Source of the DNA: Fischerella thermalis PCC 7521
Lineage (GTDB): Bacteria > Cyanobacteriota > Cyanobacteriia > Cyanobacteriales > Nostocaceae
Direction of reading: 5' to 3'
NCBI RefSeq assembly: GCF_000317225.1
Contig: NZ_AJLL01000078.1
Coordinates: 1-38,660, forward strand
Length of the DNA: 38,660 bases
The notes beneath the pieces are model-generated. The model saw nothing but the letters and a program-made list of their open reading frames with translations. It was not told the DNA's origin and did not search any database. Both the position numbers and the translations under genes were made by a program. The number at the start of each line of letters is the position of its first letter. Position 1 is the stretch's first letter. Positions 1,173 through 7,097 of the stretch are shown piece by piece.

Positions 1173-1583
1173 ATGAAAAATACATTAAAAGAATTTTTGG
1201 AAGCTTGTGAAACTTTGGGAACTTTGCGTTTAATTGTCACTAGCAGCGCCGCAGTCTTGGAAGCGCGGGGCAAAATTGAAAAGTTGTTTTATGCAGAGCT
1301 ACCTAAGGGTAAATACGCAAATATGCATACAGAAGGTTTTGAATTTCACTTAAACATGGACAAAATTACTCAAGTGAAATTTGAAACGGGTGAAGCGAAG
1401 CGGGGTAATTTCACCACCTATGCAATCAGATTTATCGACGATAAACAGGAACCTGCTTTGAGTCTATTTTTACAATGGGGTAAGCCGGGTGAGTATGAAC
1501 CGGGACAAGTAGAGGCTTGGCACACTCTCCGGGAAAAGTATGGAGAAGTTTGGCAGCCTGCACCCTTGTCAGAGATTAGTTAA
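1173..1583 (+). CDS. ChuX/HutX-like haem-utilisation fold protein (putative)
   Basis: A 136-residue soluble protein. The ATG at 1173 is preferred over an upstream in-frame start at 1098 because the longer version would translate the heptad repeat, and because AAGGAAAAAGGAC precedes 1173. The middle section (GFEFHLNMDKITQVKFE) and the C-terminal part (SLFLQWGKPGEYEPG) follow the pattern of the HemS/ChuX/HutX superfamily: a GF-HL strand, a strand pair, then a G-R/K-PG turn before a helix. That family binds or handles haem in the cytoplasm. A globin gene lies convergently about 0.2 kb downstream, which fits a haem theme but is weak evidence. It could equally be a conserved cyanobacterial protein of unknown role with the same fold. 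Confidence 0.7.
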   Translation: MKNTLKEFLEACETLGTLRLIVTSSAAVLEARGKIEKLFYAELPKGKYANMHTEGFEFHLNMDKITQVKFETGEAKRGNFTTYAIRFIDDKQEPALSLFLQWGKPGEYEPGQVEAWHTLREKYGEVWQPAPLSEIS

Positions 1584-1798: not shown

Positions 1799-2353
1799 CT
1801 ACATAGAGCGCGCGCCAGTGGCAATTAAACGCCTAAACAAACCTTGAGTCCAACCAGTTTCTCTGAGAACAGCATCTGATGATACCTCTACATAAGCTTG
1901 CTCAATAAATGCTAAATCAATCATGCAGATGCGGCTAAGGGCTTCTTTGAGGGCTTGGTTTTGACCATCAACTTGTATGCGCTTTTCTACTTCGTGAATT
2001 ACTGTCGCCATTGCTGGAACAACGTGTTGAGGTCCAATTCCTATACGGACGTGAACTAAACCGATTTTCCAACGGCGATCGGCATAAGCTTGACCCCAGT
2101 CATCCATACCTGTAAACATTTCGTGAAACCATTGAATAAAGGTTTCACGCAACCGATGAATACGCCCGTTTCCATCATGCAAAATTGCACTCATTTCCGC
2201 ATCACGCCCCAGGTAGGCATAAAAATGGTCAGCCATTTCGGGAGCAATTTGTAAACCCCAGTCGGCTTGGGACTTCAGTGTGGCTTTGTTCTCATCTGTT
2301 AAGCCTACACGCTGTTCTAGGGTAGACAAAAAGGCGAGTGTTTCTAAAGGCAT
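1799..2353 (-). CDS. single-domain globin of the protoglobin/globin-coupled-sensor type
   Basis: A 184-residue all-helical protein of the globin-coupled-sensor/protoglobin family, expected to bind haem and sense O2, NO or CO. The ATG at 2353 is chosen over the upstream start at 2383 because AAGGAGA lies at the right distance. The family pattern KIGLVHVRIGIGPQH is clear, and H101 in LVHVR is the expected proximal haem ligand. No methyl-accepting, GGDEF or kinase output domain is attached, so any signal would have to pass through a partner. It is the last gene of a co-directional minus-strand run with the V4R-like, Roadblock, GTPase and PATAN genes, which suggests it feeds that switch. A role in O2 storage or NO detoxification is an alternative. 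Confidence 0.85.
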   Translation of the reverse strand: MPLETLAFLSTLEQRVGLTDENKATLKSQADWGLQIAPEMADHFYAYLGRDAEMSAILHDGNGRIHRLRETFIQWFHEMFTGMDDWGQAYADRRWKIGLVHVRIGIGPQHVVPAMATVIHEVEKRIQVDGQNQALKEALSRICMIDLAFIEQAYVEVSSDAVLRETGWTQGLFRRLIATGARSM

Positions 2354-2388
2354 TATCAACTTCTCCTTGTAATAACTAAACAACTAAA

Positions 2389-2853
2389 TTATGATAATTT
2401 GGTAAACTCAAATACATCATAATTGCCACCACGCAATATAGATTCAGTATGCTTGCCTTGCAGGCGTTGATTAAAAGTTTCTTCTAGTACACCCCAAATA
2501 GCACCAAGGGTATAAGTACATTTACGCTGTGAACCTTGGGGTTCATCAGCAGAACATAAGGTTTCTGATGTATGTACCTTGATTACCTCATTATCTTCTT
2601 GGACAATTTTCTCGACTATACACAGACGAGTGCCATCTTTACCGAAACCATGATCGAGTTTGTCGGCTAGTTCCTCTAAGGACATCGACGAGTTTGCTAG
2701 GTCTAATTCTTGAGCTAAGGTTTTGCCACGATAACGACCTGCCGCAGTTAAAGCGATCGCAGTTGCTTTTTCGCCCAAAGCCTCTTCCATACCTGTAATT
2801 GCTGCCTTGAAACAGATAATACTGCTAAAATCCCCTAAGATAGGACGTAACAT
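2389..2853 (-). CDS. V4R/hydrocarbon-binding-like protein (putative sensor)
   Basis: A 154-residue soluble protein. The ATG at 2853 is selected because CAGGAGC lies just upstream; the longer in-frame extension to 2925 lacks this. An internal GRYRGKTLAQ segment, and a C-terminal half with CTYTLGAIWGVLEE followed by ILRGGNYDVFEF, resemble the V4R/4VR domain, whose hallmark is a G-rich helix start and a terminal G-x-x-x-x-x-F-E/F strand. V4R domains bind small hydrophobic ligands or metals in sensory proteins. The assignment is by pattern only and I am not certain of it. The gene is 35 bases upstream of the globin gene and downstream of the Roadblock gene on the same strand, so it is likely part of the same transcript. 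Confidence 0.7.
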   Translation of the reverse strand: MLRPILGDFSSIICFKAAITGMEEALGEKATAIALTAAGRYRGKTLAQELDLANSSMSLEELADKLDHGFGKDGTRLCIVEKIVQEDNEVIKVHTSETLCSADEPQGSQRKCTYTLGAIWGVLEETFNQRLQGKHTESILRGGNYDVFEFTKLS

Positions 2854-2953
2854 CTGTGATGCTCCTGTAAATTCAATGCAATTTGAGATAGGAATCTTAA
2901 GATATAAAATCGGTAATCCAAACACTTGTGTATGGATTGTTTTGTGTTTTTAG

Positions 2954-3628
2954 TCAGGCTAACAGAGGGGAAATTCTTGCCACAGCACGTTTGACTTCTA
3001 GAAACAGTAAGCCTTGTTTGACTCCTGCACCAGCAAGTACTAATAAAACTGCATCACTCCCACAAGCAACTAGGACGCCGTAGCCTTTTTCTCCTTCCAC
3101 AACAATACGTTCTACATTCCCACGAACTAGTTCACGACCAATCCGTTCACCCAAGGACAGCATAGATGCAGACATAGCAGCAGTTCGTTCTTCATCCATT
3201 CCACCTGGTAACACAGAAGCCAAAGCCAAGCCATCTGGACTTACTAAAGCCGCACCTTGAACATCAGAGGTTCCAGACACAAAGTTTTGCAGTTCGTCTT
3301 GCAACATTGAGACGTTAATCATGAATTTGTCCTCCACAATATTTAATACAAATGTATGAGTCTTCTGGGTAGTTGTAGTGAACACAGAGTCTACCGTTAC
3401 CACTGGTAACGAGTGTGCTGTATTTTCCGCAATTGTTGATTCTGGTAAATGTGCTTTTGTTAACAAGTGTGATTCTGGCGACACAGAGGATTTTGCTTGA
3501 AATCCCCTGGTGAGTAGTTTTAGTAAGTAGCCCAGAAGCATAGCGGTTAAACAGCAGACTATGAATAGCGTGATGGCGATCGCATCATCTGCGGCCAATA
3601 GCTGACTCCAAGAATTGAGACAACTCAA
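2954..3628 (-). CDS. Roadblock/LC7 domain protein, possibly membrane-anchored
   Basis: The C-terminal ~120 residues form a Roadblock/LC7 domain (VQGAALVSPDGLALAS, then a helix with AAMSASMLSLGERIGREL, then ERIVVEGEKGYGVLV). This fold, also found in MglB and CvnB, partners Ras-like GTPases. The open frame extends about 102 codons upstream and carries a hydrophobic stretch (ITLFIVCCLTAMLLGYLL) followed by a Ser/Thr-rich linker, which would anchor the domain in the membrane. The extended form starts at TTG 3628 with no obvious Shine-Dalgarno. An internal ATG at 3322 (MINVSM) is preceded by GTGGAGGAC at ideal spacing and would give a normal 122-residue soluble Roadblock protein. Both forms could exist. 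The domain is secure; the start is not. Confidence 0.85.
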   Translation of the reverse strand: MSCLNSWSQLLAADDAIAITLFIVCCLTAMLLGYLLKLLTRGFQAKSSVSPESHLLTKAHLPESTIAENTAHSLPVVTVDSVFTTTTQKTHTFVLNIVEDKFMINVSMLQDELQNFVSGTSDVQGAALVSPDGLALASVLPGGMDEERTAAMSASMLSLGERIGRELVRGNVERIVVEGEKGYGVLVACGSDAVLLVLAGAGVKQGLLFLEVKRAVARISPLLA

Positions 3629-3728
3629 ATATAAGTAACAAGGAAAATTCCCGATAACAGGATAAAAAATTGTTACTTGTTTTATCTTTTACATTTTGTT
3701 TAGAAGTTTGTTACAAACATCAAACTTG

Positions 3729-4277
3729 TTATTCCGTAGAATACTGGTAATATTTGGCAAATTCTTCCAGCAAGGCAATTAAACTTTTTTTTACAGAAGC
3801 AGCTTCCGTAGGATTAACAGATATTATCGGTAATCTGTTATTTTCATCCAGTAACCCTAAAGTTAAGGCTATATCTTCCATCGGCCAAGCTTCAGGGCAA
3901 TCAGTATGAGTTAACCCTATTAAACATGGTATTTGTACCCGATGCTTCATAAACTGAAGAATTTTTCGACTATAGCGCAGATGTTCTGGACGGTGTGCAT
4001 CGATTAGCAAAATGTAGGCATGGGCTTTTTGAATTAAGATGTCCCACATAAAATCAAAGCGTACTTGTCCAGGTGTGCCATAAAGATGTAGTGATTGGTT
4101 GGGTGCAATAGTCAATCGCCCAAAATCTAATGCAACTGTAGTTTTTTCTTTCAGGAGTGCGATTTCATCAGTTGCTTTTCTATCGGTATCTACCGTTTCG
4201 ATTTCACTGATGGTACGAATAAAGCTTGTTTTACCTGCACCTACGCCTCCAGTGACTACAATGCGTAGGATTTCCAT
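3729..4277 (-). CDS. small Ras-like GTPase (COG2229/CvnD-MglA type)
   Basis: A 182-residue cytoplasmic GTPase. The P-loop GGVGAGKTS spans residues 10-18, and switch/G3 is LYGTPGQVRFDFMW (about residues 66-79), the typical signature of the COG2229/CvnD branch. The usual NKxD base-recognition motif is replaced by THTD at residues 123-126. The ATG at 4277 overlaps the TGA of the upstream PATAN gene (4279-4277), a coupled stop/start, and GAGGAG lies a few bases before it. The Roadblock gene follows 100 bases downstream on the same strand. By analogy with MglA/MglB and the Streptomyces conservons, the pair should form a nucleotide-dependent switch. The target process is not known from the sequence. 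Confidence 0.9.
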   Translation of the reverse strand: MEILRIVVTGGVGAGKTSFIRTISEIETVDTDRKATDEIALLKEKTTVALDFGRLTIAPNQSLHLYGTPGQVRFDFMWDILIQKAHAYILLIDAHRPEHLRYSRKILQFMKHRVQIPCLIGLTHTDCPEAWPMEDIALTLGLLDENNRLPIISVNPTEAASVKKSLIALLEEFAKYYQYSTE

Positions 4278-5149
4278 CAATTATTACTCCTCAAAAAGCC
4301 AACTAGATTTTGTAAAAATAAAGTACTGATCTTGATTGTTTCCATGACTGGAGACTGTCGTGATTCCAAGGAATTAACTAAGTTTAAATCTACAGGATAA
4401 TCACTCAGTTCTGGTGTTGATGCCATCAAGGGAACTTCTTCTACTAAACAAGCTAAAATTAACCGAAAAGCTGCTTGCTGAACTAAAGCTATTGGTTGAT
4501 TAATTTGAGATGCGATCGCACTTAAAGCAACACTACCATTAGCGAATTCCCACACTTGCCACTCCAAAGCATGTAAATGAATTTGTGGTTTACCTGGAGC
4601 AATACTGCGTATAGCAGAACTCGCATCTGGAAGTGCATCAGCTAATATTTTCCAGTTCTTTATTGTTCTTAAAGCCATGAGAGCCACTTCTGTAGCCCTT
4701 AGACTTAAACCTGTCATTTCTTGAGCGGGTAAAGGTGCTTTGCTATCGAGTTTAAACACACCTTTTTGAATTTCAAATAACTGTCGCACCTGATGGAGTT
4801 GACTCGCAAATAATAAATTTAATTGCTCAGTATTCAGTAATCCTTGTGCTTTTAGATATAAACCAAGGGGCTTGTCCGTGGAAAATGTTTGTCGATATTG
4901 TTCTATAAGTGACTGATTTAACCACTTTCTTTGAGCAATTTTGTAGACTAAACCCTGACCATTTAGGCGGTTTGCTGCTGCAACTACACGTCCCTGTTTA
5001 AACCAGATGTAATAGTATTGTGATTTTGATTCAGGAGTATGAATATCTGGTAAAGTACATACACTTAAACACCCAGATTTTCTGCCTTTGTCAATTATTT
5101 GAAATAACTCAGCCAAAGAAAAGTCAGTGAAGGAACTAGATAGGTTCAT
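4277..5149 (-). CDS. PATAN/DUF4388 domain protein
   Basis: A 290-residue protein from the ATG at 5149; an in-frame TTG at 5161 would add four residues. The N-terminal ~150 residues match the PATAN/DUF4388 pattern: FSLAELFQIIDKGRKSGCLSV, then YIWFKQGRVVAA, which recalls a domain found with response regulators and in bacterial polarity and motility systems. The rest is helical and may contain a winged-helix-like region (ALSAIASQINQPIALVQQAAFRL). It is the first gene of the run and its TGA overlaps the GTPase ATG, so the two products are probably made in matched amounts. It is a plausible adaptor or effector of the GTPase; no enzymatic motif is seen. Confidence 0.85.
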   Translation of the reverse strand: MNLSSSFTDFSLAELFQIIDKGRKSGCLSVCTLPDIHTPESKSQYYYIWFKQGRVVAAANRLNGQGLVYKIAQRKWLNQSLIEQYRQTFSTDKPLGLYLKAQGLLNTEQLNLLFASQLHQVRQLFEIQKGVFKLDSKAPLPAQEMTGLSLRATEVALMALRTIKNWKILADALPDASSAIRSIAPGKPQIHLHALEWQVWEFANGSVALSAIASQINQPIALVQQAAFRLILACLVEEVPLMASTPELSDYPVDLNLVNSLESRQSPVMETIKISTLFLQNLVGFLRSNN

Positions 5150-5919
5150 TAGTTCATCCAAACATAAATAAAGTAATTTATGAAAGATTACACCCTAATA
5201 AATAACTGAATACCCTGTCGGTTTTAACTGACTACTATTCAACAATGATAAACACCTACAAACTTGAGCTAATTATTTTGTTTAGAGATTAAAGCAATGA
5301 CCAAAACAAATTAGATTTAAGAGTTCATAATTGGTAATTTAAGTTATAAACTCCAACTCAGCACTGTAGGCTAATAATGTTAATTTCCCAGTTCTCAATT
5401 GACATCTTACTCTAACAACTTTTTAGTAACAATCAAGGTAGATTGCTATTTTGCAAAATTATTTACATTTTTATTGTCACATCATTCAGAAGCATAAATA
5501 TAGAATTCGCTTATTAGAATGAGTAATTTTACTAATTAAACTATTTATTATTGATGTAGCTTCAGTAATAACACTAAAATCGTTTATTTACAAGTATAAA
5601 TTAAAACTTTAAACTTACCTGATTCTAATTCTCAAGCTCTTCATGGATACTAGTATCAAGCAAAAAGCATCAATTTAGATGAATTTTAGACAAAATATGT
5701 GGAAAACACACATGTCTAGCCAAATCAGCTTCTCTAAGCAGAAAAATAGACTTTGAAGACTAAACACTCTTCAGTATTTTTGTAATCAGGTAATGTTTTT
5801 ATTGAGTTTATTGATTTGATAGCTAAATTTAGTAACGAAATTGCAACATAATTTCTAATTAGATGAGCTTTTAATCCAGAAAAATTTACATTTTGCAAAT
5901 TATAGTGTTGATAGTTAAC
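5150..5919. other. 770-bp AT-rich intergenic region
   Basis: This divergent intergenic region lies between the PATAN gene (minus) and the DUF6816-like gene (plus). It is strongly AT-rich with no convincing reading frame and no tandem repeat. It must contain the promoter of the five-gene minus-strand cassette near 5150-5300, but I cannot place boxes with confidence. Confidence 0.5.
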
Positions 5920-6657
5920 ATGAGAAAAATCTGGGGTTTTTGCTTGATTTTTTTATTCTTGCTGTGGAGTGGAGATGCAAAAGCGGGAGAGTTAGCTAAA
6001 CGTTTAGATAGTTTCCCTGTGTGGGAAAAAATTACTTCCACAAAACCTGCTGTGGGAGATTTAATATATCCTGACTGGATGGCGGGTGATTGGCAACTGG
6101 TTAGCACCCTTGTAGATATGGTTGCACCTTTAGCTCCTGATATTGTCACTCCTGGGTTTGAGGGTAATCGTCAGTATCTGAATCAGCCTCTGAGGTTTCA
6201 AGTAAGATTTCTACGAGAAAGCACACCTGTTGCTGATACTAAATCAGCAGTAGTAGCAGATAGAGCATTTAACGGGTTAAATTTGGCACGGGCTTATTTA
6301 GGCGATACAGCCGTAATCTCCGTCAAAGTAGATCCAGATTCACCCAATCGTCAGATAACATTTTTACGTCATGAACGTCAGCTAGTTTCAATTGTTTCTG
6401 CACGCGCCACAGAAACAACATCCGATGGTAGGTTTATAACAACCGAAGTTTTTCAACAAATATTTAAAGGTGGTGGACGTCCCTATTTCAACTCTGTAGA
6501 ATCTACCACCGCTTACCGCAAATTATCTACTTCCAACCCAGCCATAGAAGGTGATCAAGTCACTGCTGTTTACCTTTCACCACAAGATCCAGATTATTTT
6601 AAAGCAGGTTCTCGTCCAGTTGCTTTATATAGATATCGCTTGGAATTTTTTCGATAG
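5920..6657 (+). CDS. exported DUF6816-like protein
   Basis: A 245-residue protein from the ATG at 5920, where a hydrophobic signal sequence begins (MRKIWGFCLIFLFLLWSGDA, cleavage likely after AKA). The mature part contains YPDWMAGDWQLVSTLVDM, VTPGFEGN and a C-terminal ALYRYRLEFFR, a pattern I associate with the cyanobacterial/plastid DUF6816 family, which has no defined biochemical role. An upstream in-frame TTG (5893) would only lengthen the signal peptide. It likely acts in the thylakoid lumen or periplasm. It stands alone, with an inverted repeat downstream. Confidence 0.8.
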   Translation: MRKIWGFCLIFLFLLWSGDAKAGELAKRLDSFPVWEKITSTKPAVGDLIYPDWMAGDWQLVSTLVDMVAPLAPDIVTPGFEGNRQYLNQPLRFQVRFLRESTPVADTKSAVVADRAFNGLNLARAYLGDTAVISVKVDPDSPNRQITFLRHERQLVSIVSARATETTSDGRFITTEVFQQIFKGGGRPYFNSVESTTAYRKLSTSNPAIEGDQVTAVYLSPQDPDYFKAGSRPVALYRYRLEFFR

Positions 6658-6856
6658 TTACTTGTCAATTGTTTGTGGTAAGCCTTGTAACATTATCCAA
6701 CCAACCACAATTAGCAACACACAGCTACCTAAAAATCCCAAATCCCAGGCTAATTGATGCACCCCTGGTTTCACATGATGAATACCGAGTTTTACCAAAA
6801 TATAAAACGTTTTGAAGCGCGATCTTCTGCCTGGAGAAATGATTTAAGTTTTTTAC

Positions 6857-6924
6857 CTTCGTGTCTTGGTGTCTTGGTGGTTAATAAAATGATTTTTTCA
6901 CCACCAAGACACTAAGACACCAAG
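6857..6924. repeat. 24-bp inverted repeat, CTTCGTGTCTTGG family
   Basis: The left arm 6857-6880 and right arm 6901-6924 are inverted copies matching at 22 of 24 positions, separated by a 20-bp AT-rich spacer. Related sequences occur at 19752-19812 (two arms), 28034-28058 (one arm) and 36088-36113 (one arm). It could act as a bidirectional terminator or as a small non-autonomous mobile repeat. The rest of 6658-7097 shows no gene. Confidence 0.75.
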
Positions 6925-7097
6925 AAAAATAGATAAATTTAACTTAAAAGGGCTATCTCACCCTGTCCTACCGAACATCCCTTTTTGTGCGTTCGTTTGG
7001 GGTGATAATTTGATAATTTGCCTCTTGACTACAATGTAATATGTATGTAGTATAAACTTCCGGAGCTAAAGGCTCATGCTCTTGGACAGTGTGCATC

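Follow-up and report, generated by a model that had tools for sequence, protein, structure and literature searches.

To our knowledge, no input has been established for most MglA-like GTPases of bacteria. The majority of these GTPases were called functionally uncharacterized in PMC4316618 (this and the other papers are cited here from excerpts), where GTPGQ, a threonine in G2 and an Asp-Gly pair are given as marks of MglA and its coupled MglB in groups 2-5. Group 5 MglA was listed there for Cyanobacteria and Deinococcus/Thermus, and PATAN genes were noted close to some group 1 and 5 genes, with Makarova et al. 2006 given as the source. Here we describe a five-gene cassette at positions 1799-5149 of a 38,660-nucleotide stretch of Fischerella thermalis PCC 7521 (contig NZ_AJLL01000078.1; the whole stretch is called the window below), in which genes for a GTPase and a Roadblock protein of the MglA/MglB kind stand together with genes for a V4R-fold protein and a haem-type globin. 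This linkage was conserved across many genomes, as an earlier sequence-only reading of the window had led us to look for, and the sensor is the exchangeable part of the cassette. All five open reading frames (ORFs) were confirmed as co-directional genes on the minus strand, and the names which that reading had given them were borne out by the ORFs, by Pfam and, for the V4R-like gene, by fold comparison:

4277..5149, minus strand: DUF4388/PATAN protein, 290 amino acids (PF14332, E 3e-25)
3729..4277, minus strand: MglA-type small GTPase, 182 amino acids (Pfam ATP_bind_1 and Roc matches, motifs, PDB match to MglA)
2954..3322, minus strand: Roadblock/LC7 protein, 122 amino acids (PF03259, Robl_LC7, E 6e-18)
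2389..2853, minus strand: V4R/Bet3-fold protein, 154 amino acids (AlphaFold model and Foldseek; no Pfam match)
1799..2353, minus strand: Protoglobin-family single-domain globin, 184 amino acids (PF11563, E 1e-19)

The cassette resembles MglA/MglB groups 2-5 of PMC4316618 in its GTPGQ motif, its G2 threonine, the Asp-Gly pair of its Roadblock protein, the occasional PATAN neighbour and its occurrence in Cyanobacteria and Deinococcus/Thermus. The GTPase carried the P-loop GGVGAGKT, TT in G2 with a threonine replacing the arginine finger, GTPGQ without aspartate in G3, and THTD in G4. Ten residues (G10, G15, K16, T46, T47, G67, T68, P69, Q71 and D126) were invariant in 91/91 alignment rows, and G70 was kept in 90/91. 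The Pfam models ATP_bind_1 (E 3e-13) and Roc (E 8e-7) scored above their cut-offs and the Ras and Arf models below theirs; the best PDB match was MglA of T. thermophilus (3t12, E 1e-4). The Asp-Gly pair of the Roadblock protein (D103-G104, alignment numbering) was present in 112/112 rows. Judged from motifs and taxa, the GTPase appears to be of the MglA groups 2-5 type, most likely group 5.

MglA groups 1 and 5 differ from this locus in that the excerpts of PMC4316618 name no globin or V4R partner and call the neighbourhoods variable; the text of that paper does not contain the words 'protoglobin' or 'V4R'. The sequence-only reading had held that the combination with a globin and a V4R-like protein is not a standard set. 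Among the top matches in the open-licence literature, no globin or V4R sensor linked to a Roadblock-GTPase-PATAN set was found, and subscription papers lie outside that search, so absence from print is unproven. Part of the set, PATAN genes near MglA/MglB, is already published (PMC4316618). Streptomyces conservons (CvnA-D, PMC4316618) likewise have a GTPase and a Roadblock protein in a conserved operon with a sensor, but theirs is a membrane histidine kinase with CvnC, whereas the cassette has small non-kinase sensors and a PATAN protein. No kinase domain was found in the five proteins; no profile search was made for CvnC. The slr0144-slr0149/BBAG clusters (PMC10151467) share the globin and V4R theme in cyanobacteria, but theirs are bilin globins, two V4R proteins and an Fe-S protein, and the main text of that paper does not contain the words GTPase or roadblock. 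A bilin-globin (BBAG/slr0144) reading of the cassette was rejected on gene content: an Fe-S gene is absent, the V4R-like gene is single, and PF02830 matched nothing in the genome.

The V4R label needed fold comparison, because the protein had no significant match in Pfam or NCBIfam. Its AlphaFold model (mean predicted local distance difference test score, pLDDT, 92) contained four strands and four helices of at least four residues, and PMC2253512 counts five helices in the V4R/Bet3 fold. That fold, in which the helices pack against one face of a twisted sheet of four strands, was matched by the model: Foldseek yielded 63 matches at E ≤0.001 (best E 1.6e-6), led by MopR, TRAPPC3/Bet3 and PoxR, with the V4R domain of DmpR and H-NOX also among the matches. 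The V4R domains matched are those of phenol sensors, and TRAPPC3/Bet3 belongs to eukaryotic vesicle traffic. The likeness is one of fold, because in the best 50 of the 63 rows identity was 10-18% and the root-mean-square deviation mostly 4-6 Å. Two GxxxG glycine pairs, described for helices 2 and 5 of Bet3 and V4R (PMC2253512), were found as G39/G43 and G117/G121 in 52/52 rows. The protein did not match PF02830 and is therefore V4R-fold, not a PF02830 member by sequence; PF02830 had no match anywhere in the Fischerella genome, and this model also misses the window's own V4R-like protein. Comparison of the V4R-like alignment profile with solved structures gave nothing convincing. In locus L139 (genome G062, 5794-7084), the gene just ahead of an orphan V4R-like gene encodes an orange-carotenoid-protein N-terminal domain; this might hint at a hydrophobic ligand.

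The globin scored 71.4 bits against PF11563 (cut-off 25), which places it among the protoglobins, and its best solved relative was the single-domain globin Tlr1989 (PDB 8h17), matched over its full length at 274.6 bits. H101 was present in 61/61 rows and Y45 was likewise kept; we take these to be the proximal histidine and the distal B10 tyrosine, respectively. In an alignment including a globin-coupled kinase, H101 aligned with the histidine of globin-coupled sensors.

To see whether this gene set is specific to the strain, 194 cyanobacterial genomes were searched with the Roadblock, V4R-like and globin proteins, the three samples being treated as the same genomes because they agreed in size and in genome labels. 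A Roadblock match was found in 20/194 genomes, of which 19 were counted, the match in G133 being distant (30% identity). The V4R-like protein matched in 13 genomes, 11 of them with Roadblock; the other two held a full-length gene (G062) and a stop-bearing remnant (G070). The globin matched in 20 genomes, 18 of them with Roadblock; the remaining matches were a fragment of 41 residues in G103 and, in G004, a weak one (27% identity) to a globin-GGDEF protein. Linkage in the cassette is not due to chance, because both sensors co-occurred with Roadblock across the 194 genomes (Fisher p 2e-11 for the V4R-like protein and 3e-22 for the globin; because of kinship among the genomes, these p values overstate independence). 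The sequence-only reading had stated that a gene order found only in this strain would count against it. That is not the situation, because the cassette is conserved across many genomes, and what did not hold is the exact five-gene order, which is not the rule.

Twenty loci were then fetched by Roadblock alone from 18 of the sampled genomes (the window's own genome excluded), and genes on the same strand within 4 kb of Roadblock were counted. DUF4388 was present in all 20, the globin in 17, the V4R-like gene in 9 and at least one sensor in 20; the GTPase was present in 19, that is, the GTPase and Roadblock genes were coupled as in MglA groups 2-5. Among 78 named loci drawn from the best 80 of 111 relatives, DUF4388 was present in 60, the GTPase in 63, the globin in 44, the V4R-like gene in 55 and a sensor in 71. 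A contig end lay within 4 kb in 21 of the 78. The 57 uncut loci had DUF4388 in 44, the GTPase in 47, a sensor in 52 and all three in 36, so that the complete set is frequent without being constant. Among the best 80 of the 111 relatives the closest was Fischerella muscicola PCC 7414, with 100% Roadblock identity. Synteny by plain descent, with no functional link between the genes, would fit the three flanking genes DUF6816, ChuX and PhoH, each of which was also kept in 34-35 named loci. All three were absent from the 20 sampled loci (L024-L043), which retain the cassette; in addition, the order of the cassette is shuffled and it recurs in another phylum, so that synteny as the whole explanation is highly improbable.

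Twelve gene orders were observed among 51 cassettes that had a sensor and the three core genes in single copy. The next cassette gene to Roadblock was a sensor for 100/114 Roadblock genes: V4R-like for 57, globin for 42 and both for 1, with none for 14 (the count ignores other ORFs, and L024 and L088 are one genome counted twice). In a tree of 108 Roadblock proteins, at least 16 switches of the neighbour between V4R-like and globin are needed, of which well-supported branches force 6 for each label; the tree has few columns, many open forks and long branches and was used solely for repeated change of the sensor neighbour. Two Roadblock genes were present in 15 loci. In eight of them the globin and V4R-like genes were each flanked by a Roadblock gene of their own, and the second Roadblock gene of a ninth locus (L051) lay between these two sensor genes; the other six had V4R-like genes only or a single globin. 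The nine mixed-sensor loci fell in the Calothrix and Scytonema-like parts of the tree, except for one row of L068. Four loci (L090, L096, L099 and L100) had no sensor; in the last two of these, Roadblock was followed by a gene encoding a HisKA histidine-kinase domain. A hemerythrin gene followed DUF4388 in L040, L041, L043 and L121 (two copies in L121), and hemerythrin is a possible third O2-binding partner. The data indicate that the sensor is an exchangeable part of the cassette.

The same pattern bears on the idea that the globin and the V4R-like protein are enzymes or cofactor handlers (nitric oxide (NO) detoxification, tetrapyrrole or lipid carriage) that merely share a regulon with the GTPase. 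Nitrite-reductase and peroxynitrite chemistry has been reported for one protoglobin (PMC4020757), the V4R and bilin-globin genes of Synechocystis slr0144-0149 cluster and are implicated in photosystem assembly and repair (PMC10151467), a ChuX/HutX-like haem-utilisation gene (window 1173-1583, plus strand) is convergent with the globin gene, and the orphan V4R-like gene of L139 follows a carotenoid-protein gene. However, a GTPase-Roadblock core that stays constant while the sensor changes is easier to reconcile with inputs than with a pathway; the slr0144-type Fe-S gene and second V4R gene are missing from the cassette, and PF02830 from the genome. The ChuX/HutX-like gene was kept in many named loci with or without the globin, so its position is probably plain synteny. 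We regard this explanation as unlikely.

We favour, with moderate confidence, a modular signalling operon in which sensors gate a Roadblock-GTPase switch, the PATAN protein passes its state on and the output differs by lineage; the contacts and the direction of control are inferred, and so are the ligands and the output. The core would consist of an MglA-family GTPase, a Roadblock (MglB-like) regulator and a PATAN protein. Joined to it as a separate small sensor would be a haem-type globin or a ligand binder of the V4R/Bet3 fold, or the two together. In one ligand state the sensor would bind the Roadblock dimer, and the bound Roadblock would alter how the GTPase is driven between GTP and GDP. 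The PATAN protein would serve as the effector or adaptor that reads the GTPase state, with a lineage-dependent output. By coupling an MglA-like GTPase with a V4R-fold protein or a haem-type globin, the recurring cassette provides a defined candidate input for such GTPases.

A more specific version would make the V4R-like and Roadblock proteins a composite, ligand-gated regulator of a Ras-like GTPase built from TRAPP-core folds, with the globin as an alternative input and O2/NO or a hydrophobic ligand setting the nucleotide state. The TRAPP core likewise contains a V4R/Bet3-fold protein, a Roadblock/longin-type protein and a Ras-like GTPase; its V4R-fold and longin/Roadblock subunits act together as a guanine nucleotide exchange factor (GEF) for the GTPase. 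A published comparison with TRAPP covers TRAPPC3-like, Roadblock and GTPase proteins of Asgard archaea (PMC10933270). The TRAPP core has Rab and longin parts, whereas the cassette has an MglA-family GTPase and Roadblock and is known from genes, not as a complex; the TRAPP rows of the Foldseek comparison had 11-16% identity and template-modelling (TM) scores of about 0.5-0.7. We hold this version tentatively and think it rather improbable. That a single bacterial operon brings together a Bet3-fold protein, a Roadblock protein and a Ras-like GTPase bears on the origin of eukaryotic GTPase-regulator platforms.

Outside the Cyanobacteria, a plasmid collection was searched. Plasmids of Thermus oshimai and T. 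thermophilus carried the order DUF4388, GTPase, Roadblock, protoglobin, and a T. brockianus plasmid carried a longer version with additional globins. V4R-like relatives with 47-51% identity were found in Deinococcus, in seven full-length records and one cut match; in seven of the seven full-length loci the V4R-like gene, annotated solely as 'hypothetical protein', came directly after GTPase-Roadblock. Identity of the Thermus and Deinococcus proteins to those of the window was 41-45% for the GTPase and 32-40% for Roadblock. D. proteolyticus had GTPase-Roadblock with no sensor annotated beside them. None of the genes upstream in L151, L152 and L153 matched DUF4388 above the cut-off, and the profile scores of those tested were weak.

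The genes that follow these loci raise the question of turnover of cyclic di-GMP (c-di-GMP) as the output. EAL, HD-GYP or HD phosphohydrolase genes followed 5/10 Thermus and Deinococcus loci: the final globin gene of T. oshimai and of T. brockianus was followed by an EAL gene, with HD-GYP next in T. brockianus, and an HD-GYP/HD phosphohydrolase gene came after the V4R-like gene in three of the seven Deinococcus loci. In some Thermus and Deinococcus, c-di-GMP turnover is likely to be the output. As the general output of the cassette, which would be compatible with the signalling operon favoured above, it is doubtful: the remaining Deinococcus loci had a GAF protein (one), a LuxR regulator (one) or neither (two), and the 20 cyanobacterial neighbour proteins that were scanned, a minority of all such neighbours, gave no GGDEF, EAL or HD-GYP match.

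In cyanobacteria, a PATAN-linked control of pili or polarity is possible. The cassette would then act through type IV pili and cell polarity, like MglA in Myxococcus, and its input would be O2 or a hydrophobic signal; this too would be compatible with a sensor-gated switch. PATAN regulators bind the pilus motor: PilB1 and PilC are interaction partners of the response regulator PixG, a PATAN protein, and PilB1 is also a partner of other PATAN regulators (PMC12288463). Co-occurrence of two PATAN proteins with SgmX was seen in a STRING search (PMC11580455). At L026 (10084-15000), the cassette is followed by genes for a PATAN-receiver protein, CheY and CheW and by one for a GAF-rich protein that is truncated at the locus end. 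However, among loci with scanned neighbours chemotaxis genes were seen at L026 only, and no pilus gene was recognised beside the cassette among the scanned ORFs. PixG is a response regulator, whereas Pfam found no receiver domain in the cassette DUF4388 protein. We judge this route possible, though on balance improbable. Of the outputs suggested by the sequence-only reading, motility is weakly supported and a light response found no support.

The AlphaFold model of the DUF4388 protein had a mean pLDDT of 83, with low values at 245-274 (a disordered linker). The C-terminal part is winged-helix-like as read from the predicted secondary structure, and a C-terminal helix at 276-288 (window 4286-4324, minus strand) was conserved in a 48-row alignment and is perhaps a docking peptide. 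The top Foldseek matches of the model were chains of GATOR1, KICSTOR and SEAC (best E 0.016). We do not claim a fold relation, because no match reached E 0.001; GATOR1, KICSTOR and SEAC are regulators of Rag GTPases, and the resemblance is weak and not significant. The DUF4388 alignment profile gave nothing convincing against solved structures.

Several observations weigh against a sensor-gated switch conserved as a unit. No sensor was the next cassette gene for 14/114 Roadblock genes, and the orders RGDVP and RGDP (6 loci) separate the sensor from Roadblock. DUF4388, the GTPase or a sensor was missing within 4 kb in 21/57 uncut named loci, and L112 consisted of globin and Roadblock only. Eight sensor copies in cassette-bearing genomes (L134-L138 and L140-L142) stand alone in about 14 kb, and the full V4R-like gene of G062 lies in a genome without Roadblock of this family. 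No signalling gene was listed next to the cassette on the T. thermophilus plasmid or in two of the seven Deinococcus loci, where the gene tables are incomplete. The DUF4388 counterparts of Deinococcus were barely recognisable, and the sole BLAST-aligned Thermus globin was 26% identical, the other Thermus globins being found by profile only.

Within the window, the DUF4388 and GTPase genes have one base (4277) in common; 100 bases separate the Roadblock gene from the V4R-like gene and 35 bases the latter from the globin gene. A scan for promoters and terminators in the locus gave nothing beyond the level of shuffles. Searches of the 5.4-Mb Fischerella genome found one Roadblock protein (E 0.001), one GTPase of this kind (E 1e-5) and nine DUF4388 matches, seven of them above the cut-off. 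The ratio of nonsynonymous to synonymous substitution rates (dN/dS) was 0.08-0.35 per gene against L045, L046, L047 and L073, the top of the range being Roadblock including a doubtful extension, and 0.06-0.38 against the nearest relative L044, based on few changes. These values indicate that the five genes evolve under purifying selection. In this set, neither a GTPase nor a globin match was found at the L047 locus, and the DUF4388 used from there is probably a paralogue lying downstream; the L047 locus (Pelatocladus) contains Roadblock, the V4R-like gene and the downstream DUF4388, with an ATP-binding cassette (ABC) transporter gene upstream.

The Roadblock ORF could be extended in frame to 3628, giving 102 extra amino acids with a hydrophobic stretch. 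The shorter gene (2954-3322) is more likely, because dN/dS against L045, L046, L047 and L073 was 0.57-0.75 for the extension and 0.02-0.055 for the Roadblock domain. An upstream in-frame hydrophobic stretch above the threshold was found in 6/114 Roadblock ORFs (the window, L044, L046, L047, L073 and, barely, L043). A membrane anchor on Roadblock was considered and is not claimed, given these six ORFs and the weak constraint on the extension.

A 612-amino-acid ORF lay within a few kb of the orphan second globin copies (L134, L140, L141 and L142) and likewise of an orphan V4R-like gene in L136. Relatives of Roadblock were also present in Neisseria gonorrhoeae and Streptomyces records.

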